From Perkinsus olseni (taxonomy: Eukaryota > Perkinsozoa > Perkinsida > Perkinsidae): a DNA stretch of 24,094 bases. Below, piece after piece: positions 67 through 22,748 of this stretch. Made by a program: the position numbers and the translations under genes. Numbering within the stretch: position 1 is the stretch's first letter; every line of letters starts with the position of its first letter. Location of the stretch: assembly GCA_013115135.1 (NCBI GenBank), contig JABANP010000661.1, positions 1 through 24,094 on the forward strand, read 5' to 3'. The notes below the pieces were generated by a model that saw nothing but the letters and a program-made list of their open reading frames with translations, did not search any database and was not told the origin of the DNA.

Positions 67-88
67 TGTCCATGATGGACAGTCCATC
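67..88. repeat. 22-nt inverted motif, T = TGTCCATC
   Basis: Exact: t1-t7, full reverse complement of T, t2-t8. Intergenic. Confidence 0.95.
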
Positions 89-700
89 CTCGTCCACATT
101 GTGAAGTTTAAATTAATCTGTGCTGCGACCAGTGCTAATTCGTCGTCTGATTTGCGATATGAAAGTTGAATTCGCTGGATCTTGTTGAGTTACTCTGAAG
201 TTCGATTAGAACTGTTCGAGTGATATCCACTGGATATTATCCACCATAACTAGTCGACTCAAAATAACGTAACAAGAATGCGGGTCCACGGATTAATAAC
301 AGTTATTCCGGAGTTACTCCAGGATATGGAACCCAACTCTGAACCGACGAGATATAAGCCTTGATCAACTAGCAGTACTAATGGTATTTCACCCGGCTCT
401 AACACCGTGGTACTTCCATGATGACGGTAGACCCTGGAATCATGGTTTCAAGCCAGGTACACTCGGTCTGCTTAAGCGCACTGGATAACTGCGCGGGAGA
501 GTGTGTTATCGCCCGGGGTGATCGATTTCATCGTTTCAACAGAACCCACGAAATTTCATGAAATTTCACCGCGAAATTTCGGGGCTCGTGCCCTGCGGGC
601 ACATGCTGGGTTTGGTAGTTCAATGCTGGATTATATATTTCAATTCCCAATTCTAACGAAAACTCGTTGATCTAACGAAAATATCGGGGGACTCCAACGG
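89..700. other. Intergenic, no gene seen
   Basis: No coding or RNA gene recognised. A near-exact 22-nt inverted motif lies at 223-244, and near 549-581 GAAATTTC is repeated three times, two of the copies forming a palindrome. It may include the unidentified 5' end of the retrotransposon. Confidence 0.4.
223..244. repeat. 22-nt motif, one mismatch, T = ATATCCAC
   Basis: Same geometry with one substitution in the central inverted copy. Confidence 0.75.
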
Positions 701-722
701 TGTTCAGGCTGAACAGTTCAGC
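701..722. repeat. 22-nt inverted motif, T = TGTTCAGC
   Basis: Exact copy, followed within a few bases by a TCTAGA-A-TCTAGA palindrome. Confidence 0.95.
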
Positions 723-930
723 TCTAGAATCTAGATCGGGCCCGGGTCGTGTGGCAACGACTGCGAGAAGTACGAGCGAACCTTCAAAAGATCGCGGCGT
801 GTGTTCGCACACGAAGTGACTAGCACGCCACGGGAGCGCGCCCCCATATCTTTCTCGCCGTTTCATCACTCGCCCGTTGCCATAACAGGGTGTAGACGGC
901 TGTGGCTCTCAACCATTATTTCTTTTTCGC

Positions 931-2000
931 ATGACCAAGCCAGAACGGCTCCCCCGCCTTCAGCTCAGCGAGCAATGGACCCAGCGGCTCGCCAAGCGGA
1001 CCTCTTAGAGTCACCCGTAAGTCGACTGCCGCGGAGGTCCTGGACGCGCTGAAGCAGCTCACCTTCCTCGGCAGCATCACCGTGGACTCTTCCTTCGCCG
1101 ACGTCGACGGCGAGATGCTTCTACAAATGGGTTCACCCACCGCGCTCAAGGAGCTCGTGCCGACTATCCCACCGAGGGCCGCCGCCCTCCTAGCGGCAAA
1201 GATCAGAGCATGGGGAGAGCCCCCCTCGAGGCCCAGAAGCCGCTCCAGGTCACCACGGCGCGGCAGTTACTACCTCCAAGCGGCGTACTTAAGGAGCTGT
1301 TCAAGGCTAAAGAAGACGGTAAGCCGGGTGCTATACCCTTTCTGCCACTACGCCGCTTCACTCCTATATCCATGACCGGTCTGACGCTACCCGATAGCTA
1401 CGCCTCGACGGTGTCTACCAGGGGCATGTGCCTGGCAACCGCCTACACCCTCGCAGGCTTCTGGAAGCCAGCAGACGGCGCAAACTACTGCAACGCCCTG
1501 ACCAAGCTGGCCGCGCAGCATAGCCCCACCCTGTCGGCTAAGTATGACTCACTGGTGAGAGAGAAGTGGGCCGTCAAAAGCGTCACCAACAGCGACTTTG
1601 ACATCTCCCACGAGACCTCCACTCTAGACCTAGAGGCAATGGTTCTTCTACAGAACGACGCCAGCAAGGCGGGCAGAAGTCAAAGGTCTACAGCCAACTA
1701 CTGCAACAACTTTAACAACAAGGGCCCGGGTGGTTGCACCAGAAAAACTGTCCCTACTCCCACCGGTGCAGGATATGCCGCAACTCCAACCACGGCGCCG
1801 CTCAGCACAAGGGGAAAACCTCCCGCGAGGACGTGTTGCTCAATCCCAATCCGGCGAAGAAACCGACCTCTACCGCCCCCTCGACATCTAAGTCTCAACA
1901 TTGACGGTCATGCGGAGGACCCGCATCACCGACTCCGACATCTACTACGCCGAAGGCGAGCGTACCACCGGAACCCCCGGATCCCTGGTCCAGACACATC
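931..2000 (+). pseudogene. gag-like ORF of the DIRS-like element, frameshifted
   Basis: Coding potential jumps between frames. An ATG at 931 opens a short frame. From about 1010 to 1240 a second frame encodes a helical stretch (around ADVDGEMLLQMG) that resembles a SAM-type fold, followed by an R/S-rich tail. From about 1240 to 1745 a third frame encodes a capsid-like region ending in a Cys-rich motif. At the A5 run 1743-1747 the frame must shift once more for the zinc finger to continue (GGCTRK then NCPYSHRCRIC, with Cys and His spaced as in DIRS gag proteins). An in-frame TGA at 1902-1904 then separates it from pol. Several independent shifts argue for decay rather than programmed frameshifting, although the A-run alone could be a slippery site or a sequencing error. 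The SAM resemblance is by eye. Confidence 0.6.
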
Positions 2001-2249
2001 GACCAAGCCAAGCAGACGGCCCACCCCTTCGACGCCCCCCCAGAGCCCTCGCTCACCAAGATCATCAAGGAGGCTAACGCCATCGGTGACTCCAAAGCCC
2101 TCAACGACTACCGCACAGAGAGGCTCAGGTTCTGGGAAAGGCGATCTACCTCTCCGGAGATTGAGGCGCTGAGAGCCGAGCTACTCCAGGGCGCTGACGA
2201 AGCCACCCAGCTCAGACTCAGGAAGGTAAACCTACCGCTGCTCTCTGAG

Positions 2250-3986
2250 ATGCTCACTACTATAGGCCACTGCGACACCGCACTACCCCACGACCTTTGC
2301 GACGGCATGAGGATCACCGGTACCCTCACCACCAACGGCCTGTACGAGCCCAAGGACGCCGACCCGCCGGTAAACAAGGAGGCCGCCCTTGATGGCGCCT
2401 CCCAACAGCGTGCCGAGCTAGGGCACTACGGTGGGAACTCAGATCATGAGCTCGACGAGGCACTCTGGCAACAGGCCCTGGCCGAGACCACTACCAACCG
2501 ACTACGAGGCCCCTTCACCGAGCAACAGCTCAACCACAACGGGCGCTGGCTCTATTTCCCCAGGTTCCCCAAGCGCGAGAGCGACAAGATTCGGGAGATA
2601 GACGACATGAAGGCCTCGTCGGTGAACCTCCTCACGTCGGTCCCAGAGCTCATCCACTTGGATAATCTCGACAACCTTATTGCCGCCCTACAACTCTGCA
2701 AGGAGCACGACTCGCAGCATAAGCTGAGAAGACACTACGTCATCGCGAAAGGCGACCGCCGGCAGGCATACCGCCAGGTAGCAGTCCACGGCGACGACTA
2801 CGACGTCCTCTACGTCCGCCTCCGCAACCCCATCACCGGCACTTGGAACTTCTTCCAACACCTCACCTTACCGTTCGGCAGCAAGGCCAGCATGTTGCAG
2901 TACACCCGCCTGGCCAGAGCTCTCGTGGCCATCATGCGGGCGGAGTTCAAGTGCCTAGCCTTCAGTTACGTGGACGACTACTTCTTCCTATGCGACAGGG
3001 ACCAGGCCGCCCTGTGCTACCAGATCTTCATCAGACTAAACGAGCTTCTGGGCTTCGAGGTTAAGCGGGAGAAGTCGCTCGAGCCCTCCGCCGAAGGCAA
3101 GCTTCTAGGTATACTGGTGAGGATTGACGACGACTCCATCACGCTCGACACCTGCCCGGCTGAGTCAGCCGGGCTGACCAAAACCATCGACGATCACCTC
3201 CACTCAGCGTCCATCACCCCTACCCAGGCCTCTAAGCTGGCGGGGAGACTATCCTTCGCAGCCACGAGCTTCCATAGCCGCTGCGGCCGGGCCTTCCTGA
3301 GAGCCCTATACCACAGGGCCAACGACACCAACTATGATCATCGTGGTAACAACAACGACGAGGCCCTGGCAGCGCTCAGGTGGTTCAGATGGGCCATTAC
3401 GGCCTGCCCTAGGAAGATCGTGTACCTCCACACCAACACCCCGCATGTCATCCTCTACACCGACGCCGAGTTCTCCTACACCGGCGACCCTCCAACCGCG
3501 AAGAGCGGCGGCATTGGAGCGGTTCTGGCGATCCCCAACCACCAGCGCGTGTTCTGCCTCTCCTGGCCACACCCCGCGGACGTCTTCGACTCTCTGGAGC
3601 AACGGCAGACCGACATCCATCCACTGGAGGTCATGGCGATCCCAATCGCACTACATCACTGGCTTACCACTACGGTTCCTCTGCAGCTTCTACTTCGGCG
3701 AACCGGCGGCATCAACATCTCCCTCTACACGGACTCCACGGTCGCACAGGGGGCCCTCACGAAGGGATCTTCTTACTGCAGGGACATCAACAACCTGGTA
3801 GCGGCCACATGGAAACTCTGCGCCGAGAACAACGTGGGCCTCTGGATTAACCGGGTTACCTCCGGCGAGAATCCCGCCGACCTACCTAGCCGCCTGAAGA
3901 CTGACACAATCCGAAGGCTGGGGTGGACGACAAGCAACATGGAGACCACTCCCCCCTGGCGCGAATGGCTACAGGAGCTCAAGTGA
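2250..3986 (+). CDS. Reverse transcriptase-RNase H (pol) of the DIRS-like element
   Basis: A 578-residue open frame. RT motif A is GDRRQAYRQ with Asp169, motif B is LPFGSKAS, and the catalytic motif C is SYVDDYFF with Asp242 and Asp243. The RNase H domain begins near LYTDAEFS (Asp405) and continues with HPLEVMA (Glu), LYTDSTVAQG (Asp) and a final NPADLPSR block, so the acidic set looks complete. No DNA methylase or DDE integrase domain follows. The same frame stays open upstream to the TGA at 1902-1904, so the true protein may start before the ATG at 2250. All catalytic residues I can recognise are present, so this part could still encode an active enzyme even though its gag and recombinase neighbours are broken. 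Confidence 0.9.
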   Translation: MLTTIGHCDTALPHDLCDGMRITGTLTTNGLYEPKDADPPVNKEAALDGASQQRAELGHYGGNSDHELDEALWQQALAETTTNRLRGPFTEQQLNHNGRWLYFPRFPKRESDKIREIDDMKASSVNLLTSVPELIHLDNLDNLIAALQLCKEHDSQHKLRRHYVIAKGDRRQAYRQVAVHGDDYDVLYVRLRNPITGTWNFFQHLTLPFGSKASMLQYTRLARALVAIMRAEFKCLAFSYVDDYFFLCDRDQAALCYQIFIRLNELLGFEVKREKSLEPSAEGKLLGILVRIDDDSITLDTCPAESAGLTKTIDDHLHSASITPTQASKLAGRLSFAATSFHSRCGRAFLRALYHRANDTNYDHRGNNNDEALAALRWFRWAITACPRKIVYLHTNTPHVILYTDAEFSYTGDPPTAKSGGIGAVLAIPNHQRVFCLSWPHPADVFDSLEQRQTDIHPLEVMAIPIALHHWLTTTVPLQLLLRRTGGINISLYTDSTVAQGALTKGSSYCRDINNLVAATWKLCAENNVGLWINRVTSGENPADLPSRLKTDTIRRLGWTTSNMETTPPWREWLQELK

Positions 3987-4933
3987 GCTACGAGGCCGTA
4001 GCCTACGGCAGTGCCGTAACAGCACTCCCCGCGGACGGGCACCGTCACTCCAACAGTGGCCACCACTACCTTCGTTTCTAGCCGAGGCCGCCGCGCTTGC
4101 GCTAGAGAGGGCACGACGGGCCACCCGCGTCCCCCATCGGTGGTCACCACCTGCTCCGGGTTACCCTTCGATGGCGGACACCGCCCGCGCAACTCGCTCT
4201 GCCCCGCACCTGTACCTTTTCAGCTTTATCTTTCCCTTGTCACTCAGGTCACACCACACATGACATCTCTCGCCATCTCGAGGCAACGAGGATCCTACGG
4301 CATCTGAGGAGCTTCGAGAGTTCTACTTTCAAGACCAGTGTGGCTGACGGACAGAATAAATCGTGGAAAATTTTTGCTAGAAAATTTTCGACAGAAAGAA
4401 AAGAAAAATAAGAAAAAATAGAAAATTTACGGAAAAATAGGGACGAAAATGCAGAAATCTCCCGGAACCAGGGTACTTAAGTCGCAGATTTAAGATAAAT
4501 CAATATCGGCCATCACGATATCAGCGACGTTTCGACACTCCATAGGAGCACTACTGAGTGAACGAGATTTATATCAACAAGAAAAAAATTGAAAAAATGG
4601 CTGTTCTGGAGCGAATTTGGGGAATTTTCATAAAAATATTTTCTGCCACAATATTGCGGTCTAACCGACTAATCATTAGTCACTAATGTACGGCGGAGCT
4701 CCGAGCTATACAGTATCACCGTGCACTGTGTAGATTCCGGGTGTCAGTGCTTGCGCTCAAGTCAAACAGAGTTGTATTTGACACGACTTGATTTCGGGGG
4801 AGATAAACTCCCGATCCGGGAGTCTCGGAGTTTGAAGGGACCCGGACAACAAGGCCTGCATCTTTCGTCCAGCTTCTGCACTATGAAGAAAATTCGCGAA
4901 AAACAACAGCTGCCCCGGTCTAGGTCGTGAGAT
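3987..4933 (+). other. Noncoding spacer between pol and recombinase of the retroelement
   Basis: No convincing coding sequence. It becomes A/T-rich from about 4350, with a 9-bp inverted repeat (GAAAATTTT arms) near 4365 and A-runs around 4390-4440 and 4580-4600. It probably holds internal control or strand-transfer sequences of the element, but I see no long direct or inverted copy of the element's ends here. Confidence 0.4.
4667..4688. repeat. 22-nt inverted motif, T = GACTAATG
   Basis: Exact copy. It lies in the noncoding spacer of the retrotransposon, so if that spacer belongs to the element this event is younger than its insertion, or was carried along with it. Confidence 0.95.
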
Positions 4934-6084
4934 ATGGAATATTCACGTCGTGCATTTCACGACATGAATTTCCTTGGGCGCGCGCTTTCCGCATTTGAAC
5001 AGAAAAATAGATTCTGTTATATGTTCGAAAATATTTCGAACAGAAAGATGAAAATTTTCATTGTGTCAGCCACACTGTTCAAGACCTACTTACAAGGCGC
5101 GAGACACTATGCCAGGTTCTGCCGGGCCTTGGAGTTGAGCGACTACTTCCCCCCTAAACCGCTTGTCTTGGCATGGTGGGCCATACGCTGCTTCCGGTGC
5201 CACAGTACCCTCAAGAACTACATGAACGGCGTCAAGTTCTTCACGCGCCTGGTCTCCCATTCGGACGACTGCATGGACGCCTTCAACAGCGACGTCGTCT
5301 CAAACTCTATGCATGCGGTCTTCCGCCTGAGCCCGAAGCCCCAAGGCAAGCGTGGTATCCACTACGCCACGGTCAAGTCTATCGTCAAGCGCGCTGACCA
5401 CACCTGGGAAGCCGCCACAAAGACTCCCTGCGACAACGACACCCTAACGCCTTCAAGACGGCCCGGTTCGCCGTCGCCTGCCTAACGGCCTACAGCTGCG
5501 CTCTCCGGGTACGGTCCGAACTGCTCATCCTGAACGACTCCGCTATCTCCTTCGACAAGGAGGGAGGCTTCACCATACACCTCAAGCGCAGGAAAAACAT
5601 CCCGGAGCCCACGGAGATACAGCGGCCCTGTGTATGCCGCGTTGACCCGGAGTTCTGTGCCTCCCACCGACTCCGCTACCTACACGACCTCCTGACTGGC
5701 TCGCCGCCTCACACGGGCCCCACGGCGAGCAGTCCTCGGTTCGGGCGCTGGTTCCCAATGTCTCTCGAGCACTTCAACGGCGAGCTGCGAAGGACGCTAA
5801 CACTCTGCGGCTATCCCGAGACCGAGGTCTCGGCCTACGCCTCCCACAGCCTGAGAAGGGGCTCCACTGAAGACCTAACTACCGGAGGCGGCCGGGCGAC
5901 CCTAACCCAAGTACTGCGACGTCAACAGGTCTGCAGCGGCAGCTACAAGCGCTACATGGACCTGCACAAGGCCGAGAGCCTGGAATTCCTTCAGCTAATG
6001 GGGAACATCGTCGAATCGGACAAGGGCACAAATGCTGCCAATGGGCCTGACCGCGGAGGGATCCCGTCACATGGGCCTCTATAG
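4934..6084 (+). pseudogene. Tyrosine recombinase of the DIRS-like element, one frameshift
   Basis: The N-terminal half is open in one frame from the ATG at 4934 and the C-terminal half in another, joined near 5440-5450. The C-terminal frame carries the catalytic set of tyrosine recombinases: an Arg in the LRVRSELLIL block (5506 or 5512), His and Arg in the HSLRRG motif (5845-5847 and 5854-5856), and a Tyr in SGSYKRYMD (5944 or 5953). In DIRS-like elements this enzyme integrates a circular cDNA without target-site duplication. Joined length would be about 380 residues, normal for the family. One single-base shift makes the copy nonfunctional unless it is a sequencing error. Confidence 0.8.
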
Positions 6085-6862
6085 GCTCCCTCTGCGGTTG
6101 TGCTCCTACCACACTTCCACTATCTCTCGACATCGTGCCCACGGCCTGCGCCATGGCGGTTATATCGGCTGTCTCTGCTAGCCTCGTATGCCAAGCCCAG
6201 GTCCGTACGTCCGACTGAGACTATTCAGCAATCAATCGCTAGACTTCCCCCACGCTCCCAGCGTACGGGCTGAAGGTTTTCCCATGTATAATTACACTGT
6301 GTCGTGTTGGCGCCGCTCCAGTGGGGTATGTGTTAGTCTAACACAACAGGGTGGATTTGATCGATAGCGGCGCTATCATAGCGCTATGTTCTCGTTTAGT
6401 TGCCTACATTACGATCAGAGATTCCCTCTCATTCCTCAAGAGCTGCTCTCCTAAATAGGCTGGAGAGTTCAATACTCTCCGTCGAATAGCGAAACTTGGA
6501 GCTTACTATTCCCTAGTATTTTATTGGCTTCCTGTTATCCCCCGAACTCGACATGAAAAGTGGATTGTGCGCCTACACGCTACCCTTAATTCCCGTCCAG
6601 ACATTTCTTCCCTCCCATTATTACAAAAAAACAAGCATCACTTGATGAGTTGCACCTTTGCAACGCAACACCACTCGTTCGGAAAAAGGCAAAAATGCCC
6701 ATCGTCAACATGCACAGTGCTCCACAATCGCTGGAAGGGTTCTCTGCCATGAGCTTGAACGAAGAATGGGTCGGGAAAGCGCTGAAAGCACCGAAGTAAT
6801 AAGGATGAGCGATAACGTGATAGGGTTGCTCAGAGAAAACGAGCCGACGAGGAAGGACGATA
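6085..6862. other. Downstream of the recombinase, no gene seen
   Basis: No protein or RNA gene recognised. The unidentified 3' end of the retrotransposon should lie here. One exact 22-nt inverted motif is at 6363-6384 and a 7-bp inverted repeat (GGAGAGT arms) near 6461. Confidence 0.4.
6363..6384. repeat. 22-nt inverted motif, T = GATAGCGC
   Basis: Exact copy, about 280 nt after the recombinase. Confidence 0.95.
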
Positions 6863-6919
6863 ACAGAGGACCGCCAAGCGCTGAATGTACGTTGATATGG
6901 TCACAGTGGAGTCCACGCT
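6863..6919. repeat. 57-bp direct repeat, copy 1
   Basis: Matches 7029-7085 over 57 positions with one mismatch, in the same orientation. Flanking sequence is unrelated. Confidence 0.9.
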
Positions 6920-7028
6920 GAGCGAGCCCCCTACTGTTGGTTCATATCTGTACTAGCACTGGAGATCACAACCGTATGGGTGAACGCGATTTCTTCGAGA
7001 ATATGCCATGAAAAATACAAAACGTATC

Positions 7029-7085
7029 ACAGAGGACCCCCAAGCGCTGAATGTACGTTGATATGGTCACAGTGGAGTCCACGCT
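7029..7085. repeat. 57-bp direct repeat, copy 2
   Basis: Second copy of 6863-6919, starting 166 nt downstream of the first. One mismatch (G to C at the eleventh position). Function unknown; both copies contain a short GTGGA/TCCAC palindrome near the end. Confidence 0.9.
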
Positions 7086-7210
7086 TAGTTACCACTAAGC
7101 TAAAGTGGCTCACACAAGATGATGTCCAGAAACTTAGCGGTCAAATAACCGTGGCGCGAGATTTTCCACCTACCGTTATTATGGGACAACGCGAGCACAC
7201 CAAACAGTTC

Positions 7211-7283
7211 AGCCACGTGACAGGATTGAACTGACGTCCTTTGGCTTTCAAAGCAGACGGTATACCAGTGGTACATCGTGGTC
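7211..7283 (-). other. tRNA-like sequence (possible pseudogene or SINE head)
   Basis: On the minus strand a B-box-like AGTTCAATCCT lies 3' of a D-arm-like stretch with TGGTATACC, and 5-bp acceptor-like ends (CCACG/CGTGG) pair at a tRNA-sized distance. The anticodon arm does not fold cleanly, so a functional tRNA is unlikely. Confidence 0.35.
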
Positions 7284-7481
7284 TTACGCAAAGACCTACG
7301 CGATCATTGGTTGATGCATGCGGGCCAGATGGTTGACTCAGTCAACGGTGAGAGTCGCTCTCCGTGAGAGGCACATAGGACGCCATTCCACTCCATCCAC
7401 CTGGTAGCGTATCAGTGATATGTGAGAGGGTGGCTCGCAATAGGGCCTATCACATGGTGAAGGTTGAAGTCTCCTTCGAGC

Positions 7482-7503
7482 ATGTGAACTTCACATTGTG
7501 AAG
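7482..7503. repeat. 22-nt inverted motif, T = ATGTGAAG
   Basis: Exact copy, intergenic. Confidence 0.95.
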
Positions 7504-7838
7504 GCAGCGATGGTCGCTGGGGGTCCCTCATGTCGCGCAGGAGGCTTCTTGTGATGTCGGCTGCACTGAGCACAGTTGATCGATGCGGCGATAATTCGCA
7601 CTGACAGTACCGCGGCCTGATTGGCCCCAGCAGAGTATTCTGGACTGACTGCAGTCCAGTGGCGGCGAACTTTCGTCTGAACGACGTTCTCGTTTAGCCC
7701 TGATCGTTATCTAACCCAATATTGCACTCATTGAGCAACGCGCCATCAGGCTGCTTGGCATCACGGAGCCGTTTTGATATCTTGAACACTCACTGCTGTT
7801 CTCGGATGTAAGCTTGATGCTTTAGTGGGCTCAAGTTG

Positions 7839-7857
7839 GTCGCAAGTCACTTGCGAC
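7839..7857. repeat. One-base-centred palindrome, 9-base arms
   Basis: GTCGCAAGT, centre C, then the exact complement. No third arm, so it fits a one-sided hairpin scar. Confidence 0.8.
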
Positions 7858-8123
7858 GTAGAGATCGACGAAGACTTCGACTGCCTCCACGTTAACTTCC
7901 GTTACGAAGTGCCTCGTCATCGAATCTGCAGTACCGGTTTGTGACTCTGCTCGAACTTCGCGCTTTTCCGAGAACTTGGACTCGGAAATCAGAGCACTGT
8001 AATCGGCTCCAGCGCTCTTCGAAGAGATATTATGCCTCTGCGGGTAATCTAACCTGCGCTATTCAGGAGCTAGATTGTGAACCATCCCTTCAACAGAGAA
8101 GTGCTCAGGCATGCGATCCGGAG

Positions 8124-8145
8124 TCACACGCCGTGAGTCTCACGG
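8124..8145. repeat. 22-nt motif, two mismatches
   Basis: Central copy CCGTGAGT and right arm CTCACGG are exact; the left arm differs at two positions. The core closely resembles the motif at 11027-11048. Confidence 0.55.
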
Positions 8146-8733: not shown

Positions 8734-8752
8734 TACTGACATGATGTCAGTA
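8734..8752. repeat. One-base-centred palindrome, 9-base arms
   Basis: TACTGACAT, centre G, exact complement. One-sided type. Confidence 0.8.
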
Positions 8753-8797
8753 CAAACAGAGCAGGCTGATTATCGAAAAGCCGACAATGTGATTGTC

Positions 8798-9340: not shown

Positions 9341-9437
9341 ACTTGAATAAGAAGCAAGTCCTGAGAAACGTCACAGATGATTGGCCTAGGGCGCGCAAAG
9401 GTCAAAAAACCCATAATTTGGGTGATTTAATCACACC

Positions 9438-14816: not shown

Positions 14817-14833
14817 CTGAGCTAGTCTAGCTC
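14812..14833. repeat. 22-nt inverted motif, T = ACTAGCTC
   Basis: Exact copy covering the TAG stop of gene 13814-14816; the stop is part of T and so survives. Confidence 0.95.
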
Positions 14834-15135
14834 GCCGAGCAACTCGTCAAGCTGCTTTTCCCGCATTTCAGTAGGGGTTCAAGTTCAATCGTTCAACGAA
14901 CCCCGATTCACCCATTTCGCACTTACTCAGCTGTTTTTCAAGATTCATTTCACGACTGCAAGAAGTATTGTGTTCTGGAAGTTCTCTTGAGCTGGAGCAA
15001 AAACTAATTGGGTCTTCCCGGGCATCGGCGACGGAATTAAATGAAGTCGATTCGATTCTGAGAGCTGGTAGGAACTTCAATGCTTCGAGTGGCAAGTTGC
15101 CTCTGGCCGCAGAACGTGGCGGAATGAAACCGGTG

Positions 15136-15157
15136 CCTGAGAATCTCAGGCTGAGGT
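15136..15157. repeat. 22-nt motif, one mismatch, T = CCTGAGAT
   Basis: Right arm differs at one position. A second 8-arm palindrome centred on C overlaps its right end. Confidence 0.65.
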
Positions 15158-15196
15158 ACTACCTCAGGTCCTGCATAGTGAGTGATTTTTTATTGA

Positions 15197-15250
15197 ACTG
15201 GTGTCACCAGTCTGGGCCAGACTGTCTGGTGATAACTTATCACTGATAAG
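15197..15250. repeat. Nested cluster of three 22-nt motifs
   Basis: ACTGGTGA-derived outer motif, split by an AGTCTGGT-derived motif (15209-15230, one mismatch), and overlapped by an exact GTGATAAG motif (15229-15250). Undoing the three 14-nt gains reduces 54 nt to the 12-mer ACTGGTGATAAG. Confidence 0.85.
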
Positions 15251-15386
15251 CGATTGAGATCCACTTCTCCAGTGTTTTGACTATCGACCATGTGTATGAC
15301 CGCCGATGGTCACAGAAGTGAATACGAGCAGATATTGCGCTGAATCGTGATCGATGTAATATATGTCGGATATATGGAACTGAACG

Positions 15387-15408
15387 CTCAGCGTCGCTGA
15401 GTCAGCGA
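15387..15408. repeat. 22-nt inverted motif, T = CTCAGCGA
   Basis: Exact copy, followed by a 7-arm palindrome at 15410-15424. Confidence 0.95.
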
Positions 15409-15878
15409 TAAAACGTGACGTTTTTGTGGGCGTATCATAGGCGTATCTATAGTGGATGGTGCAGATCCCCAGACGCTGAAAATTTTCAAACCGGCTGGAG
15501 ATACAGACCGTACGGCAGAGTTGACTTGGACAAGGAATGTATTGGCATTGAGCTGTGTTTGATAAATTAACGGGAGTCTCTCACTGATAGGCAGTCGGAC
15601 GAACCATCGAGTGGCAGCTCTAAACCATTTTGTTTGAGTTATGAAGCTCAGCAACGCTTCTCGTTATACCACCTCACAATGGAACATATCCGAGAAACAG
15701 CTGGTGATGCGTCCAAAACGGAAGTAAGTCCTCGTCTTGATATTCACGTTCGGGTAGGAACATTCAGGTCAGCTCTTTGCCCGGCAAAGGCTGTACGAAT
15801 TATCGTGTGGCGATTGGGCTATCGTCACGGTCGGACAACCGAGCGCTCGGCTGCAATCAGGTGAGAGGTGTATCCGGA

Positions 15879-15900
15879 TTCCCAAGTTGGGAATCCCAAC
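15879..15900. repeat. 22-nt inverted motif, T = TTCCCAAC
   Basis: Exact copy; the motif at 22727-22748 is its exact reverse complement. Confidence 0.95.
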
Positions 15901-16070
15901 CACTTCACGGGAGGCACCTGTGTCGGGAGCCCCGTCGATGATTTGTAATGAGTCGTATGCAAGGATAGTTGGAACAAAATTATCCTCTGCGGTGAAGACA
16001 GTGATTACTTCAGGAGGGCTCTAAGAGTATGCTCCACCCACCATAGTTGGGATATCCGTACATCCGTGCT

Positions 16071-16092
16071 ACCTGCCAAGCAGGTCCTGCTT
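16071..16092. repeat. 22-nt motif, one mismatch, T = ACCTGCTT
   Basis: Left arm has one substitution. Confidence 0.75.
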
Positions 16093-16188
16093 GGGCGAGA
16101 ACCCAATGGAAGAGTGCTGCTTCACTGCTGCAACTGCTGTAGTACAGCAGGCCTACAGCTCTCTTGACCTTCGGGAATTGGTTCCGGA

Positions 16189-16209
16189 ATATTCCGGAAT
16201 CCGGAATAT
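16189..16209. repeat. One-base-centred palindrome, 10-base arms, overlapping a 9-base zero-centre palindrome
   Basis: ATATTCCGGA, centre A, exact complement. It overlaps the zero-spacer palindrome TTCCGGAATATTCCGGAA that starts near 16182. Confidence 0.8.
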
Positions 16210-16240
16210 CACAGCTTGTTGGTCATAGGGCTCGTCTCAT

Positions 16241-16262
16241 GTGGGAACTTCCCACTCGGAAG
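16241..16262. repeat. 22-nt motif, one mismatch, T = GTGGGAAG
   Basis: Right arm has one substitution. Confidence 0.75.
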
Positions 16263-16313
16263 GCCCATCCGCCGCTGTGGGCAAATCAGCGGCGCAAACC
16301 TCAGAACGAAGGT

Positions 16314-17201
16314 TTAACATTCGTAGGTGATATCAGCCTGGACTCCCTGCCTGAGCAGGCTGCTCAGAGCAGCTGCACACCGGCTGCCATGACCGGGCAA
16401 CAAGGCCGTCGAGAACCGAATGCAGACAGCGGGGGCCTCGCCGAACAATATGTCGATTATGTCATCAGATGCTGTCTCAATATTCGGCAACAGTGGCAAC
16501 ACTCGGCGCTCACTTTCCTGGATGCCGGCGTTGCCCTGGTAATCTTGGTGAGCTACGAGAGCGAGGCAATGAAATCGGGCAGGTGCTCCACTTGAAGCAG
16601 GGTAGAGGGCTACTTCTCGGCCATCGAGCAGTACCCTGGGCGGGTTGGCCATCACAGACACCTTTAGATAGGAGAGCAAACGTCGACCAGCGATAAGGAG
16701 AGGCATATCTCCTCGCGAGGGGAACTCAGGCCCATGAAGAGCATACTATGCTTCTATTAGAAGCAGCGCGGTGCCTTCTGGTAGGGCCACGATCCGAATC
16801 AGTGAGGATTGTTGCTTCCGGCCACGAAAGCAGAGGAAAGCAAAGCTGTCGAGCATCTCTGGTATGTTCTGGTGCAACGCATCTCCCCACGAGTCGAAAA
16901 CATTTGATGAGAGACTCGGCAAGATAGCGGGCGCACCAGTCTCTAACCGTACCTCCACGGGCCTCCCCTGTGGAATCGGACGCATTCGCCTTAGTGGACT
17001 GGGTTACCGCGGCAACAACGGCGACTTCCTCACTCGCACTTAAACCCCTGGACGTTAGAGTGCGAGCAGCGACGTCCTGTCGTTCAAGCCTATTGAGAAT
17101 GCCAAGGAGTGACTCACTCCGAGTGAGGTCTCGGTTCCATCGAAAGAATTCGCGAGCGCCCAGTCAGGCGTGTCGCTTGCAGACGAGCAACGCGGTGCGC
17201 C
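16314..17201 (-). CDS. Hypothetical minus-strand gene, interrupted
   Basis: Going down the minus strand, a frame opens after a TGA at 17204. It is broken by the 22-nt motif at 17106-17127. With the motif collapsed (T = CTCACTCC on this strand) the frame stays open for 153 codons, including SLLGILNRLERQDV and EEVAVVAAVTQSTK. A second frame covers 16985-16314 (including PVEVRLETGAPAI and RFHCLALVAHQDY) and is interrupted only by a TAG at 16725-16727, beside the palindromes at 16735-16765. One candidate 70-nt intron with GT/AG ends and a suitable phase could join the two frames near 16890-16960, but its acceptor context is weak. A further motif at 16352-16373 sits near the 3' end and its effect there is unclear. 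No family recognised. Confidence 0.4.
16352..16373. repeat. 22-nt inverted motif, T = TGAGCAGC
   Basis: Exact copy near the 3' end of the minus-strand frame 16314-16985; its effect on that frame is unclear. Confidence 0.95.
17106..17127. repeat. 22-nt inverted motif, T = GGAGTGAG
   Basis: Exact copy that breaks the minus-strand frame 17201-16726. Confidence 0.96.
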
Positions 17202-17318
17202 TCAGAGATCAGGGCTGGCGCCCGACTGGCCGGTAGCCTCGCAACGGTCTTGCATTCCGCCTAACACGGCCTCTACGGCGCCCCAATCTCCTCTACCTCT
17301 CCCTTTACCAGGAAACGT

Positions 17319-17347
17319 GCAAGAAATTTCGCGGCGAAATTTCTTGC
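17319..17347. repeat. One-base-centred palindrome, 14-base arms
   Basis: GCAAGAAATTTCGC, centre G, exact complement. Confidence 0.9.
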
Positions 17348-17390
17348 CAAGAATGAAACTACCATTAAGCGCAGTCCTATGTGTCTAGTA

Positions 17391-17412
17391 TTCTGAAGTT
17401 CAGAATCTGAAC
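17391..17412. repeat. 22-nt inverted motif, T = TTCTGAAC
   Basis: Exact copy, intergenic. Confidence 0.95.
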
Positions 17413-17471
17413 ACATGCCAACGATCGAAGTGTATACGATGACCCCATCGGATGGAGCCCATCCTGAGTAA

Positions 17472-17534
17472 GCAAGATTTAGCGAGGAAACTCATTGAGT
17501 TTCCTCGCTAAATCTTGCATTGAGTTTAACTCAA
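17472..17534. repeat. Asymmetric double-hairpin scar, T = AAACTCAA
   Basis: A 23-arm palindrome centred on T at 17495 has AAACTCA as the inner end of its left arm. One base after it ends, a 7-arm palindrome centred on T at 17527 has AACTCAA as its right arm. Both tips imply the same 8-mer AAACTCAA. Confidence 0.88.
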
Positions 17535-17941
17535 CACCACCGAAATCACACGAGAGCCGATATCAAGAGGACATCTACTCGAATTTCATGAGTCGATCCT
17601 CTCGCCGATCCACCCTCGTGGTTTACTGAATTAAAATATCATGAATAACAAACCCGGCTATTGATGGCGATCAGGATGCGCTGCCATCAGAATGAACAGA
17701 GGCGCACACTACTAGTAAATTTCCTAATATTCCTCTGTGAATAGCGCGGAGCTACTTTCTGGACAGGATGACCTGCTCCCTTATGGAGTGCGGTGACTCG
17801 AGTCTTCAGGTGCACAAACAAATGGTCAGCAGCCCAGGCCTACCCTGAGGCATACCGACAGAAGGCCGGAAATTAACACTTCTGACAGGCTGACAGCCTA
17901 CCTTCGCGACTTCCTAAAGATAAATCTCTTCCGGGATCGAC

Positions 17942-17972
17942 CATGCATCATGCATGACATGCATGATGCATG
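17942..17972. repeat. One-base-centred palindrome, 15-base arms, built from CATGCAT
   Basis: Four alternating CATGCAT/ATGCATG arms with single-base spacers C, A, G. A 9-arm palindrome overlaps its right half. Confidence 0.9.
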
Positions 17973-18322
17973 TCTCGCATGGCGAGACTCGCTAACACAG
18001 TCGTCAGTAATAAATTTGATTCCGTTATAATGAGTGTGGGTGAGCAGTCAGATCAACTGAGGAGGGAAGGCTCCATAGATCCGGCGCTCCATAGATCGGC
18101 GCACCGAGGCGGTAGGGGAGAACCCGCTTGTAACCATCTACGGGAGAGCAGTCTTGAAAGTTGCGGAACAAAGATCACGTCACCGGGATAGGCGCACTCA
18201 GCGTCTCTCAGCAGACTGTACTAGCCAGAAACTACTAACTCCACTAATATACTGTACTAGCCGGCACCAATCTTCCTCATCTTCGTTGTTGTTGTCTTCC
18301 GTGACGGGACCAAGATTAATTT

Positions 18323-18344
18323 GTCCTCCAGGAGGAGCCCTCCT
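18323..18344. repeat. 22-nt motif, two mismatches, T = GTCCTCCT
   Basis: Degenerate copy. Confidence 0.5.
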
Positions 18345-18474
18345 GCACCAGATTGACGAATGTGCCAGGAAACTGAAACTGGATCGAACTGCGAAGCTCT
18401 ATACATTTTGAAACACATAGTATTCAGATACATGCATCAGCCTGTCTATGTCGTTCCCAGCTCCAGCGTCTTCG

Positions 18475-18493
18475 ATGGTATCAGTGATACCAT
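18475..18493. repeat. One-base-centred palindrome, 9-base arms
   Basis: ATGGTATCA, centre G, exact complement. One-sided type. Confidence 0.8.
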
Positions 18494-18753
18494 ATCCGAG
18501 ATACCTTATCACGCCCGACGTGTCTCGGGGGGATCATCGATCGGGGGAGGGGTCCTTGATCTCGCCTCCTCGGCCGAAGCGTTCAAGATGTGATAGGAAG
18601 TTATTAGGCAGCGGAAAGTTGTCCTGGTCTCCGCGAATGCTTGACGTGAGAGGTTGAGAGTTACAATGAAAAACCGCAGCACGTATAGAGGCGTTACCCG
18701 TCATTGGCCGCGAGGAGGCATTTCCGGATCATTTCGATATGGCCAAATCCATC

Positions 18754-18775
18754 TCCTGGAGTCCAGGACCTGGAC
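18754..18775. repeat. 22-nt inverted motif, T = TCCTGGAC
   Basis: Exact copy at the stop of the minus-strand exon 18775-18963. Confidence 0.95.
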
Positions 18776-18963
18776 TATCTCATCAGCGATAGTAAAACAC
18801 GTCTGAAAGTGCGACTACCCAGAGGGACCCCGGCTAGAGAGAAGTACAGTGGAATGCCATGGAATAGCAGAACATCGCTGATACTCACCATTGATCCCTT
18901 GAGCGCATTCAACCAAGCCTTGTCCACTTTCTCGGCCTTCAATACGGCTACTTCAATAATCAT
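18775..18963 (-). CDS. Small hypothetical exon
   Basis: A 62-codon minus-strand frame with alternating hydrophobic and charged residues, ending LLSLMR and a TAG just before the 22-nt motif at 18754-18775. The motif lies in or after the stop, and collapsing it does not remove the stop. A CAG just upstream of the first ATG would serve as a splice acceptor, so this may be a last exon. No family recognised. Confidence 0.3.
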   Translation of the reverse strand: MIIEVAVLKAEKVDKAWLNALKGSMVSISDVLLFHGIPLYFSLAGVPLGSRTFRRVLLSLMR

Positions 18964-19033
18964 CCTCTGACCCTATTGATCCACATATCTGGAAGGGGTA
19001 GCTCCTCCACGCCCCTCAGGACAAATGCATGGC

Positions 19034-19630
19034 TCACTTGTCCTTATCTTTGTCACTGTCAGAAGCTTGTAAAGATGTGACGGCGATCCCCACCGGCTCG
19101 AGGTCACGAGCCGTCCACATTACCCCCGAATGGGGTAGACGGTAGACCATCGCAGGGCAGAAGTTGCCGAGTGAAGCTGACAAACCTGATCGCGAAAACC
19201 ATAGTATGGTTACCATACCGTAAAATTTATATTCTCCGCCAAAGGCGTCCGACGCCGACTCGGCCCAACGCTCACTTCCCAACCGCCTTTCCCAGTTCCA
19301 CGCCGAGCCAGAGGTACAGGGCAGTAACACTACCACTCGGGATCCGGTGAGCGGATTCCGCTCCATTGGGGTATGATAACCGTCGGGCCATACCGGAGCT
19401 TTGAGGCCCATTACAGGCATCTCCGGGGGTGGTGGAGGAGGAGGCGGCGGCGAAAGTGGGAGTGCGGGTGGAGGAGGCGGAGGTTGAGGTGGCGGTGGAG
19501 GCGGCGGTGGAGGAGGAGGAGGAGGTGGCGTCTCCACGGGTGGTACTGGTGGAGCTGCTTCAGCCTCTGGCTCGGAGATCAAAGAGAGCTCTAGACCCCC
19601 CTCCCAGTCGAATGTGACTCGGCTTTAGTC
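19034..19630 (-). CDS. Proline-rich hypothetical protein, C-terminal exon
   Basis: On the minus strand, an acidic start (EPEAEAAPP) leads into about 30 prolines in two blocks, then a globular-looking segment (GLKAPVWPDGYH and SAWNWERRLGSERW) and a charged end (SDSDKDKDK). Poly-proline of this kind binds profilin, SH3 or WW domains, as in formin FH1 regions, but no FH2 or WH2 domain is visible. There is no convincing ATG: the frame is closed by TAA just upstream near 19630, so the 5' end is probably a splice acceptor. The 22-nt motif at 19197-19218 lies inside. Collapsing it sends the frame to an earlier TGA near 19104, whereas the straight read keeps the charged end, so here the motif evidence is ambiguous. 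Confidence 0.5.
19197..19218. repeat. 22-nt inverted motif, T = AACCATAC
   Basis: Exact copy inside the proline-rich exon. Both the straight and the collapsed frame are open for some distance. Confidence 0.95.
19423..19530 (+). other. G-rich tract with G-quadruplex potential
   Basis: The plus strand opposite the poly-proline codons is a run of GGTGG, GGAGG and GGCGG with many G-tracts, so it could form G-quadruplexes in DNA on the strand opposite the gene. Confidence 0.6.
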
Positions 19631-20039
19631 TCACGGGCAGGGCGATCGCCCCTGGATAGACAAGATGATTCGAGCTTCCCACGCACCTTGCTGACTCTCG
19701 ACGACTCAGTGGCGGTGGATAATATGCTAGAGGTCATCGAGTTAGTATCATTTTGAGTGGGAAGAACCATAACAATGTAGGGAGCAGAGGGTGTGCCAGC
19801 CGGCAGCGATACTGGATAGTGTCGAGTCGGTGTACGGTAGCCATCCAGCCGCTGGATTCCAGCGGTGGATAGCGAGATCCGTAATATATTGGCGGGTGTG
19901 TCTTGTTGTGATGAGCATTCGACGAGCCCTGAATATCCCCTGCAGCACACATGTCACGGTGCCCTCGATAGCCAGAGTCACTATCCTGGCTTGGCCACGC
20001 TATAAACGACCTGATAGTGGGCTGCCTACGGAACATCAA
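19591..20039 (-). CDS. Hypothetical upstream part of the proline-rich gene, broken by one 14-nt insertion
   Basis: Two minus-strand frames overlap. One starts at 20039 (MFRRQPTIRSF) and is gene-like down to the 22-nt motif at 19843-19864; the other is gene-like below it (GYRTPTRHYPVSLPAG). Collapsing the motif to its 8-mer joins them in frame without a stop, giving 144 residues. The link to the proline-rich exon downstream needs an intron or shift near 19590-19690 that I could not resolve. No family recognised; the product is rich in Ser, Thr and Pro. Confidence 0.4.
19843..19864. repeat. 22-nt inverted motif, T = ATCCAGCG
   Basis: Exact copy that separates the two gene-like minus-strand frames of 19591-20039. 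Confidence 0.96.
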
Positions 20040-20143
20040 ATTTTGAATCTAAATGACATACAGTACGCACAATCTAGGGAATGTGAAACTGTTCAGCGCG
20101 AGAACCTTTCAACTAAGACGAATTACTCTCTCAAACTTTGAAT

Positions 20144-20477
20144 TTATACTCTCATATGCATATTGTATTGAACCTCGGACCGAGGTTCGATCAGATCGAC
20201 AGGCCTCGAAGGTCCCTTCCCCACAGGCTGTAGGCTACAGCCGAGGTACGCATCAATGCCGGCCCCGGGTGGGGCTGTTGGGCCAACAGTGTTGGCGGTC
20301 GGTCATTGTATCATTAGAGCTATATCGATTGTTATCCCTCGGATATTGGCGAGAGTCAGGAGGATGGAAGGCGTCCATCCTGGGACAGTCTGTAGCATCC
20401 AGCAGGCGATTGTAATCATGATTAAATTCAGCCGAGGAACTCATAGAGATAGACAATTGATAACTGGTACGAGGCAA
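20144..20477 (-). CDS. Hypothetical Ser-rich minus-strand ORF interrupted by two motifs
   Basis: The frame from 20477 (SYQLSISMSSSAEF) is broken at the exact motif 20275-20296 and again at a one-mismatch motif 20220-20241. With both collapsed the frame is open to a TAA at 20144, 101 residues in all. A 9-base-arm palindrome (20170-20188) also lies inside and may be another scar. It could be an upstream exon of the proline-rich gene on the same strand. No family recognised. Confidence 0.3.
20170..20188. repeat. One-base-centred palindrome, 9-base arms
   Basis: GAACCTCGG, centre A, exact complement. One-sided type. Confidence 0.8.
20220..20241. repeat. 22-nt motif, one mismatch, T = CCTACAGC
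   Basis: Left arm has one substitution. It lies inside ORF 20144-20477. Confidence 0.75.
20275..20296. repeat. 22-nt inverted motif, T = CTGTTGGC
   Basis: Exact copy inside ORF 20144-20477. Confidence 0.95.
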
Positions 20478-20803
20478 GACTACTGAGTCGCCCGAACGTA
20501 TTTAGTATCGGAGGCTGAAGCAAAGCTGGTGATCTGAGAAATGCCACAATGAATCGCCACATTCCGAAGAGATCGCTAAGTGAGAGACACTCAACTGGCC
20601 ACAACAGGGACAGAGACCGCGAAGAATATTGGTCGTCAAGCCGGGAGATGACAGCGCCAACACAACACTGAACTCACGGGCACTGAATCATGTCAGTTGC
20701 ATGCCTACTCCCACCGGGGGGAGGATGTGGGTCGCCGATTGACGAATTCTCGAGAGTTTCCTATGGTGGAAGGTGTCAGCGTAGAAAAGACGTCAGCATC
20801 TCA

Positions 20804-20825
20804 CCCGCTGTCAGCGGGCCGCTGA
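20804..20825. repeat. 22-nt inverted motif, T = CCCGCTGA
   Basis: Exact copy, intergenic. I see no gene between 20490 and 21157. Confidence 0.95.
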
Positions 20826-21157
20826 GGAGAAAAATGTATTCAACAGCAGCTATCTTCCCTTGTTAGAGGACTGAGGTTAGAAGCGGCGGGATGATGAAAT
20901 GGATGATGTACGGCGGCCTACGCTCTCGTTCGCTCCTGGTCATAAAGCTCACGAGCACCTAAATAGAGGTAGACGACACTATACCGATGGGGCTAGCTCA
21001 TCAGCTCATGTGCGTCCTAATCTCTTGATCATATCCAGCAAGCGAGCTCTCGGCTAAATCGAAGATACGCCTGGAACGTTCAACCATTCTCGCCAGAAAC
21101 TTCTTCATGAGGGGATGTAACTGGCGATGTAATTTCACGAATATATGAAGCAGGTGG

Positions 21158-21681
21158 ATGATGCTACGTGGAGAAGATGATGACGGAAATGGAGCACATA
21201 TTTATCAATTGATGATACGAATACGCTGGAGTCTAACGGCTCGACCTAAGGTCGCCGACATCGCGCAAAGATATCTAGCCGATTGTTCACCCTGGCACCA
21301 GGGGAGAAGAGGGAGGGGGTATGTGACTAGTTCATACCTACCAGCAACCTACCCCGAGGAGAGCGGCTACTCGCATACCGACCTCGAAATAGTAGAAGCT
21401 CTTCTGGTTGAGCCGCATAACCCCAGCGATAGGGTCAACACTGCGGCAGTGTCACTGCCTGCATAGCTGGGATACCCGTTTTACGATGGGTTGAGCACAC
21501 GCAAGCCCTGTATGTCAGCGTTGAACATCGGAGGCAACTCGATCTGAGCGCCGTAACTCCTCTCATCCCCGTCACGGAAAGACAGGACCTACCTGTACGA
21601 AACGTCGTAAATAAAGACCCTCACCGATCCATAATGGGAGGGACAATTTGCAGGCCGCTGGTAACTCCAGGACTCCCTTAA
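21158..21681 (+). CDS. Hypothetical protein gene broken by one 14-nt palindromic insertion
   Basis: The frame is open from the ATG at 21158 to the 22-nt motif at 21438-21459 (T = ACACTGCC), where it soon meets a TAG. Collapsing the motif to the 8-mer removes that stop and the frame runs for 75 further codons (AGIPVLRWVEHTQALY, then RQDLPVRNVVNKD) to TAA at 21679-21681, 169 residues in all. An in-frame stop lies just upstream of the ATG, so the start is either this ATG or a splice acceptor. No family recognised. Confidence 0.45.
21438..21459. repeat. 22-nt inverted motif, T = ACACTGCC
   Basis: Exact copy that breaks ORF 21158-21681. Confidence 0.96.
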
Positions 21682-21791
21682 GGACGCTGTTAATGGGGCG
21701 AGGAATCCTCACGTGACTGACACTCCATTCGTTCCCCCACTCGCCACCTGATGGGCCGTTATCAGCGACGCCCTGACACACGTTAATGACA

Positions 21792-21813
21792 GGTTCACGG
21801 TGAACCGTTCACC
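21792..21813. repeat. 22-nt inverted motif, T = GGTTCACC
   Basis: Exact copy, intergenic. Confidence 0.95.
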
Positions 21814-21899
21814 CTTAATCTTCGTCGATTCCGATGAACCGAACGTTCCGCCACCCAAGGGTCACACTAGTTGGTGCTCTTCACAGTATTCCCGCCGTG

Positions 21900-21921
21900 C
21901 TAGCGTAACGCTAGTAGCGTT
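21900..21921. repeat. 22-nt inverted motif, T = CTAGCGTT
   Basis: Exact copy, 20 nt before the near copy at 21941. Confidence 0.95.
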
Positions 21922-21940
21922 ACTATATTTCCGTCTTCGC

Positions 21941-21962
21941 CGTCCTGGCAGGACGGTCCTGT
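21941..21962. repeat. 22-nt motif, one mismatch, T = CGTCCTGC
   Basis: Right arm differs at the last base. Confidence 0.75.
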
Positions 21963-22025
21963 TCTTCTTTCATTCCTCTCTTTTAGACCGCTATCTCGGC
22001 AGCCTGGGTGTTCATCCGTACGCGG

Positions 22026-22047
22026 TGTTGAGTCAACAGTGTTGAAT
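22026..22047. repeat. 22-nt motif, two mismatches, T = CTGTTGAC
   Basis: Outer bases of both arms differ; the 6-base cores are exact. Confidence 0.6.
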
Positions 22048-22130
22048 AGTCGGGTTTCTATCAGCAGCTCATCCTAGTGGTGCGGAACAGTACGAGCGAT
22101 GAGCGGCAGGCTGTCCCAGCTTACCTGCAG

Positions 22131-22152
22131 GCTGCAGCCTGCAGGCTGCAGG
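22131..22152. repeat. 22-nt motif, one mismatch, T = CCTGCAGG
   Basis: T is itself palindromic, so the copy is part of a longer CCTGCAGG/CTGCAG palindrome cluster (22124-22152). Confidence 0.65.
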
Positions 22153-22726
22153 ATCTGATCCAGGCCCCAGTAATCCTTTCTGTAATACATGCTTCCAGCT
22201 GGCGCACTCGGGCCCTGTGTCGTGGACCTCGAAGGAAAGGATAGTTGGGGCCCTCTGAAAATACGTCCTGCGTTTCTGACGACGACATGAGCGAAGCAAC
22301 GACGAAGATAATAATAGCAAGGTTACACAACAAGTCGTATCACTAGCGAGCAGAAGAACACGTGAACCAAATCCACTGGGCTTCAATCCAGCGCGTGTTA
22401 CGATATTATAATAAGGGGTAAATGTACTTTGTCAGCGTGTGTTGAACTCTGTTGTGAATTCTCCTAGTCTTTCTCAACTGGGTCGGGAAAGTTTCGTTTT
22501 CGGATAATATTGTCCCGCAGAATAGTTGGAAAAGTAGACCACTGTAGGTTGTTGTCCTTGTTCAACACCCGATTCTCAACTACTTCGGGTGAGAGCTATC
22601 TCAACACACGCGAGTTTAAATTCTCAATCAAAAAACTGTAAACGCCCTATAGTTGTTCGAAAAGAACGTCGGATGTTGTAATTTCCACGGTCGTGTTCCC
22701 TTGGCCGAGCTGTTGACGTTCTGCCT
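22153..22726. other. No gene seen
   Basis: No convincing coding frame or RNA gene. Fairly A/T-rich from 22400. Confidence 0.35.
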
Positions 22727-22748
22727 GTTGGGATTCCCAACTTGGGAA
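22727..22748. repeat. 22-nt inverted motif, T = GTTGGGAA
   Basis: Exact copy and the exact reverse complement of 15879-15900; it lies just before minisatellite array 1. Confidence 0.95.

Follow-up and report, generated by a model that had tools for sequence, protein, structure and literature searches.

Inverted 22-nt triplets in Perkinsus olseni, most likely the excision scars of hAT transposons

Triplets in the window and the plain 8-mers in other copies

The 24,094-nt DNA analysed here, the entire contig JABANP010000661.1 of Perkinsus olseni (labelled C625 and called the window below), is dotted with a 22-nt motif built by a single rule: for any 8-mer T, with bases t1 to t8, it reads t1–t7, then the reverse complement of T, then t2–t8. 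We argue that these triplets are 8-bp sites that have gained 14 bp, and that they are most likely excision scars of hAT transposons once inserted there. A scan with the rule finds 33 exact triplets in the window. An earlier note on this DNA had listed 31 start positions, every one of which obeys the rule exactly, but two exact copies (3157 and 11209) had been missed, and in place of the eleven further copies "with one or two mismatches" that it reported, the window holds 11 with one mismatch plus 16 with two. 

We extended the scan to a further sample of 28 stretches of the same genome (225 kb), eight picked for hAT domains and twenty by contig number. When the same rule is applied to T of other lengths k, a control called for by the earlier note, the numbers of copies in the window and in the other 225 kb are 7 and 82 for k = 4, 3 and 6 for k = 5, 1 and 3 for k = 6, 0 and 1 for k = 7, 33 and 76 for k = 8, 1 and 0 for k = 9, and 0 and 0 for k = 10 to 13; the triplet excess is thus specific to k = 8. 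Five block shuffles of the sample gave a mean of 0 exact triplets against 112 observed, and decayed triplets are also present in the sample (57 with one mismatch and 65 with two). Since 106 of the 109 exact sites differ in T and in context, the triplets are generated by a process and are not copies of a repeat, as had been proposed from the window's sequence.

If the triplet is an enlarged 8-mer, other copies of the same locus might carry the 8-mer itself. Other copies of much of the window were located by genome search on C447, C826 and C367 and were aligned in part, along with further pairs, and gaps were tallied in alignments of at least 100 columns and at least 77% identity. This census holds 69 gap rows of at least 3 bp, 26 of them exactly 14 bp long; 23 of the latter fit the scar rule by script (in two of these the script hit a neighbouring scar and the correct 8-mer was taken by eye), one fits by eye and two do not fit. 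The two misfits, a tandem repeat at window 19555 and a gap at window 9413 against C826 that does not obey the rule, were rejected as scars and counted as gaps. With each site counted once, there are 22 distinct sites, selected for having a 14-bp-shorter copy in hand, at which another copy of the locus is exactly 14 bp shorter and carries the plain 8-mer T, the very state predicted in the earlier note; the empty state of the scar at these sites is a single 8-bp target copy. The differences run in both directions (triplet in the window and plain in the copy, or the reverse), and both states are exact at 15 of the 22 sites (13 by script and two, CTGTGGGG and CTGCTACT, by eye), the other seven showing one to three differences. 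When the first sample was compared with itself, a clean shorter counterpart turned up for three sites, and in every case it was the plain 8-mer.

The closest pair of copies, window 6335–12936 and C367, differs by 48 substitutions in 6,284 aligned bases (three main alignments) and by six gaps longer than 2 bp, all of which are scars (five canonical triplets and one 24-bp non-canonical scar), or six scars per 48 substitutions. The comparison with C447 gives ten canonical scars and 269 substitutions over 7,350 aligned bases. C447 and C826 both carry the plain state at window 17489 and 21907, in line with a derived triplet there, though the window may be more distant from these two copies than they are from one another. 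Large segments of window 6335–22415 recur collinearly on C367, C826 and C447 at 78 to 99% identity, and these may be alleles, subtelomeric duplicates or a large mobile unit. About 519 bp of the window (10204–10722), lying between alignments, is missing in C367; it has a 3-bp repeat (ACC) at its ends, is possibly a different DNA transposon, and was not accepted as a hAT element with only that 3-bp repeat.

The density of triplets was estimated solely from the twenty arbitrary 10-kb contig starts chosen by contig number, which hold 60 exact triplets (0 to 10 per stretch) and 144 when up to two mismatches are allowed. Extrapolated to the 61.5-Mb genome of 968 contigs, this is about 18,400 exact triplets (bootstrap 11,400–26,100) and about 44,300 with up to two mismatches (bootstrap 28,000–62,700). 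Stop-free frames of at least 250 codons make up 17% of the sample, yet only 5 of the 112 exact triplets lie inside them, as expected if a 14-bp insertion usually harms genes. The exact triplet at 3157–3178 sits in a 693-codon stop-free reverse transcriptase frame, though 14 bp should shift the frame.

The features of the window are listed below, all without strand. A canonical scar is a triplet; "plain" marks a copy that carries T alone, and openings, overlap and filler are defined in the next section.

67–88, canonical scar, T = TGTCCATC, exact
701–722, canonical scar, T = TGTTCAGC, exact
3157–3178, canonical scar, T = CGGCTGAC, exact; absent from the earlier list
4328–5085 (both TTCAAGAC duplication copies included), 742-bp hAT-type element lacking a long transposase frame, ends 13/14 matching
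4667–4688, canonical scar within the hAT-type element, T = GACTAATG, exact; also in the L001 copy
6363–6384, canonical scar, T = GATAGCGC, exact; common to C367 and C826
7482–7503, canonical scar, T = ATGTGAAG, exact; common to C367
9438–9459, canonical scar, T = ACTACGGC, exact
9586–9607, canonical scar, T = GTCACAAC, exact
9623–9654, non-canonical scar, T = GTCTTATC, openings 7 and 16 nt, overlap 5, +24 bp; plain GTCTTATC in C367
10808–10829, canonical scar, T = CCTGGGCT; plain, exact in C367
11027–11048, canonical scar, T = CCTCACGG, exact
11061–11082, canonical scar, T = TCCACTAC, exact
11209–11230, canonical scar, T = GTGAGAGT; plain, exact in C367; absent from the earlier list
11712–11733, canonical scar, T = GTCCTAGT, exact
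12268–12289, canonical scar, T = CCTAGAGG, exact
12660–12681, canonical scar, T = CCCATACT, exact
14124–14145, canonical scar, T = ACTCCAGA; plain, exact in C447
14330–14351, canonical scar, T = GACGACTG; plain, exact in C447
14812–14833, canonical scar, T = ACTAGCTC, exact; common to C447
15209–15230, canonical scar with one mismatch, T read as AGTCTGGT; C447 14 bp shorter with ACTCTGGT, read by eye
15229–15250, canonical scar, T = GTGATAAG, exact; common to C447
15387–15408, canonical scar, T = CTCAGCGA, exact; common to C447
15879–15900, canonical scar, T = TTCCCAAC; plain, exact in C447
16352–16373, canonical scar, T = TGAGCAGC, exact; common to C447
17106–17127, canonical scar, T = GGAGTGAG, exact; common to C447
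17391–17412, canonical scar, T = TTCTGAAC, exact; common to C447
17488–17534, non-canonical scar, T = AAACTCAA, openings 24 and 8 nt, filler 1, +39 bp; C447 and C826 have plain AAACTCAA
18754–18775, canonical scar, T = TCCTGGAC, exact; in C447 with one mismatch
19197–19218, canonical scar, T = AACCATAC, exact
19843–19864, canonical scar, T = ATCCAGCG, exact; common to C447
20275–20296, canonical scar, T = CTGTTGGC, exact
20804–20825, canonical scar, T = CCCGCTGA, exact; C447 alignment poor here
21438–21459, canonical scar, T = ACACTGCC, exact; in C447 with one mismatch
21792–21813, canonical scar, T = GGTTCACC, exact; C447 4 bp shorter here
21900–21921, canonical scar, T = CTAGCGTT; C447 and C826 14 bp shorter with CTGGCGTT
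22727–22748, canonical scar, T = GTTGGGAA, exact

Exits other than the triplet

The triplet can be written as one member of a wider set of exits. On the assumption that T was duplicated and that each broken end was a hairpin, an exit reads t1–t7, followed by a bases from the far strand of the left hairpin, f filler bases (an overlap giving a negative f), b bases from the far strand of the right hairpin, and t2–t8, with a predicted gain over T of a + b + f + 6 bp; the triplet is the case a + b + f = 8. In a grid of blunt joins (a and b each 0 to 8), joins with a + b = 8 were found at 109 sites versus 0 in the shuffle, and most other classes at 0 to 8.

We also scanned for pairs of palindrome centres from which one and the same T can be deduced, with a and b of at least 3, a + b of at least 9 and a filler of at most 6. 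This gave ten sites beyond the triplets; a control rule that left the centres uncomplemented gave 1, and five shuffles gave 0 each. Openings at these ten sites (the lengths a and b) reach 24 nt, their lower limit of 3 being the filter setting, and the joins comprise five overlaps, one blunt join and four with 1 to 5 filler bases. An aligned copy is in hand for three of the ten, and all three copies show the predicted plain T, with a gained length equal to a + b + f + 6 in each case: window 17495/17527 (openings 24 and 8 nt, filler 1, +39 bp), window 9630/9647 (openings 7 and 16, overlap 5, +24 bp) and L001 3062/3074 (openings 9 and 3, filler 1, +19 bp). The first two were recognised before their copies were fetched, and the gap in L001 was known earlier; C826 is otherwise rearranged around window 9630 and uninformative there. 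In the triplets (by the rule) and in the ten non-canonical sites alike, the flank palindromes centre on the complement of the base beside the break. A range of openings and joins exists among the scars, as a minority, and the ratio of canonical to non-canonical scars, about ten to one, is an upper bound because detection favours the triplet.

Two further length differences were inspected by hand. C826 has 16 additional bp at window 16861, a gain that agrees with openings of 1 and 7 and a filler of 2; for a 21-bp insertion at window 22125 no fit was reached. Window 22757–22994 belongs to a repeat of about 240 bp with more than 20 dispersed copies. The three copies with which it was compared are longer by 15 bp; this difference (237 versus 252 bp) had the look of a scar but was rejected as one, the extra 15 bp being a tandem unit in those three copies.

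hAT elements and target preference

If hAT elements left the scars, they should be found in the genome and the 8-mers should resemble hAT targets. A genome-wide search, which the earlier note had also called for, gave 21 matches above cut-off to the hAT C-terminal dimerisation domain, a lower bound. One of the frames, in L007, scores 31.7 bits to this domain, and the L007 hAT-type frame shares 96% identity with a P. olseni protein across 75% of its length and 69% with a P. chesapeaki protein across 71%. Nine elements have terminal inverted repeats and equal 8-bp duplications (the C25 and C4 pairs were left out, as their duplications are unequal), and the duplications of six of the nine carry the GT../..AC half-site (p = 1.4e-4). 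Exact ends of two hAT families number 14 and 17 genome-wide.

The window itself had been thought to hold no intact hAT element, but a 742-bp element lies between two copies of TTCAAGAC at 4328–5085; no transposase frame was recognised in it. Its target is present as a single plain TTCAAGAC in C79 and C242, and with one extra base in C692. The element lies between or in the frames of a retroelement (window 1210–5485), which has a reverse transcriptase frame (RVT_1, 36 bits) followed by a frame that resembles a tyrosine recombinase by eye, and the element-free surroundings are found on C79, C692 and C242. A joined-flank search at five other elements gave spanning copies for two, C367:31254 and C408, and these are empty, the one for C408 with one substitution. 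All copies that span the three element sites (window, C367:31254 and C408) are empty, and none has a scar left by the element in question. The step from T to T-element-T (insertion) and the step from T to triplet (scar) can thus both be seen in this genome, at different sites.

Three further observations concern the elements. One 8-mer, GTCCGGAG, precedes a hAT-type element in duplicated surroundings on three contigs, L001 (C129), L004 (C209) and C25; a tandem of the same 7-mer comes after the right-hand copy in L004; and C11:41957–42052 is a miniature hAT-type element of about 80 bp with the duplication GTTCAAAA.

The 107 distinct T of the triplets show a common preference. Half-sites that start with GT number 38 of 214 versus 12.7 expected (p = 1.4e-9). 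A central TA, the target of the Buster group of hAT elements, is not enriched (2 of the 107). The pattern nTnnnnAn is found in 17 of the 107 versus 6.5 expected (p = 2e-4), and this is the target that the hAT element Hermes prefers (PMC10368747). The enrichment of both patterns is a hAT-like target preference.

Mechanism, rival explanations and known systems

We infer the earlier presence of an element at each scar, and with it the hairpin chemistry, the nuclease and the annealing of tails, which together could produce the triplet as follows. The element would sit between two copies of T. In hAT cutting the first nick falls one base into the flank; cutting of this type would then seal the chromosome ends as hairpins, linking t7 to t8' at the left end and t2' to t1 at the right end. 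Flank hairpins have been described for hAT elements and for V(D)J recombination (PMC6900584). Nicks made by a host nuclease in the 5'-ending strand, at a distance of several to twenty-odd nucleotides from the hairpin tips, would leave 3' tails. The tails t8'..t1' and its complement, both derived from the duplicated 8-mer, would pair in register over up to 8 nt, and fill-in would give t1–t7, the reverse complement of T and t2–t8. For the complement to stand at the palindrome centre, the 3' tail must be the end of the hairpin strand itself; 5' tails were rejected on paper, as fill-in would then place t8 and not its complement at the centre. The constant 8 would arise because the length of the duplicated target makes the opened tails complementary over exactly 8 nt. 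The hairpin model of the earlier note is kept in its flank hairpins with a one-base tip offset, which fit hAT chemistry, but not in its proposal that both hairpins open 8 nt from the tip, as openings reach 24 nt. Exact counting of 8 nt by a nuclease is unnecessary, since other openings occur and any in-register join with a + b of at least 8 would give the triplet.

Candidate hairpin openers are encoded in the genome: the SNM1/Pso2-type (DRMBL) domain is matched once, at 64 bits, and the Mre11 domain once, at 57 bits, over a stretch that contains one stop when introns are disregarded. Ku gave a single weak match (28 bits). An A-family DNA polymerase frame in L013, checked as a candidate for polymerase theta, could not be assigned.

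Several findings weigh against excision of hAT elements as the source of the triplets. Among the copies in hand there is no element-bearing allele at any of the 22 scar sites or the three non-canonical sites. The (1,1) join that is classical for Ac/Ds, in which each hairpin opens a single base from its tip, shows no enrichment (3 versus 6 in the shuffle), and low-information join classes are in excess, above all (0,0), at 177 versus 63, in part through tandem repeats. By hand, a palindromic insertion of 28 bp at window 17320 could be fitted only with a filler of 12 nt. Taken by themselves, the 22 polymorphic sites show no significant target preference (GT/AC in 5 of 22, p = 0.10), and nTnnnnAn is found in 0 of 11 non-canonical T. 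Diverged copies met in a wider joined-flank search (L008, L021, L024, L025 and L002, about 70 to 83% identity) are without the insertion and also without an intact T, and were left uncounted. The general element scan, the source of three of the nine elements, gave 4 hits versus 6 in its own control; because it did not beat that control, the weaker elements (L002, with 11/14 end matches, and L007, with 9/14, both of which flank hAT domains) rest on the genome-wide recurrence of their ends and on the nearby hAT domains. Finally, hAT was the one superfamily with 8-bp duplications that the transposon search covered.

The missing element-bearing alleles would be explained if there had been no stable insertion, and a hAT transposase, perhaps domesticated, made 8-bp staggered hits or hit-and-run joins that were mended to the triplet. 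The small number of exact ends of the two hAT families beside an extrapolated 18,000 exact scars points the same way, and Kat1 shows that a hAT-derived protein can make hairpin breaks (PMC4763223). Scars of the two-hairpin kind, however, need two copies of T at the break, as an ordinary insertion supplies, and complete elements with clean duplications exist, so we consider such hits unlikely to be the source. The length of 8 bp is not peculiar to hAT: P elements, Merlin and KDZ also make 8-bp duplications, and a GT start also fits the P target, so that an element of another superfamily might have inserted and left, its exit being repaired in the same way. Merlin has been reported in Alveolata (PMC8101967). 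Flank hairpins with a one-base offset are, on the other hand, described for hAT, and the GT../..AC half-site is carried by most of the hAT duplications found here (six of nine, above); a non-hAT source seems to us distinctly improbable. Short template switches in replication can yield inverted copies, and such a switch might have copied the local 8-mer in reverse before returning, but the length is fixed at k = 8 and the 8-mers have a common, symmetric target preference, which makes this explanation very hard to credit. Almost no weight is due to the remaining readings, namely a small family of repeats, a hairpin that acts as a functional RNA or binds protein, and an artefact of assembly, for although the triplet sequence can fold, nearly all exact sites are distinct (106 of 109), the other allele is the plain 8-mer, copies decay and many are common to several copies of a locus.

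Excision of hAT elements, the reading that we prefer, places the triplets among known hAT products; the footprint is already known as a kind, and what is new is its uniformity and density. Ac/Ds footprints in yeasts and plants include palindromic insertions with the same centre as here, the complement of the base beside the element (PMC5873905). Palindrome arms of at least 3 nt are found in 47% of Ac/Ds exits in Saccharomyces cerevisiae and in 20–30% in Arabidopsis; in S. cerevisiae the arms reach 20 nt and 88 to 89% of footprints show microhomology (PMC5873905). Ac/Ds footprints are varied, with 28 kinds among 128 Candida albicans revertants (PMC5873905), whereas here the +14 bp product dominates and, unlike in Ac/Ds, the tails would run across the whole 8-bp duplication. 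By the present account, Ac/Ds exits would be more varied because openings there are mostly shorter. Hermes, a hAT element of Musca domestica, shares with the present scars the 8-bp duplications, nTnnnnAn and flank hairpins, but is a defined active element, while the system here is known from scars and a few elements in sequence (PMC10368747, PMC6900584). In human cells, small insertions at exits of the hAT element TcBuster were likewise ascribed to flank hairpins and end joining; those exits have insertions of a few nucleotides and deletions of up to 50 bp, and the accessible part of that report does not mention a 14-bp product (PMC3499496). A comparison of two rice genomes likewise read excision scars from genome comparison, but its 94 putative excisions span all superfamilies, with deletions and fillers, and only nine hAT transpositions were included (PMC4423477). 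Kat1 of Kluyveromyces lactis, a hAT-derived protein, also makes hairpin-capped breaks on the flank, but at the mating-type locus, where they lead to gene conversion (PMC4763223). In the open-licence literature, no title or abstract opening was found on this 22-nt product or on Perkinsus footprints.

Exits of cut-and-paste transposons are usually varied or invisible, so that turnover is hard to read from genomes. A fixed scar grammar that does not depend on the target and can be found with a short script could make turnover, relative age (by decay) and target preference countable genome-wide, and the opening of hAT hairpins, usually a passing step, becomes readable in natural sequence as opening points, polarity (3' tails) and joining. 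The 14-bp insertion, which shifts the reading frame, is indicated as a frequent small mutation in the genome studied. A stronger statement can be made only tentatively, and it may well prove too strong: that hAT elements here are touch-and-go, their stay being so brief that scars outnumber elements by orders of magnitude, that nearly every exit is mended by the same duplication-guided join, and that triplets are a leading kind of small structural mutation. On the reading that we prefer, most recognisable exits appear to follow one grammar, and the genome would be a countable record of hAT visits.

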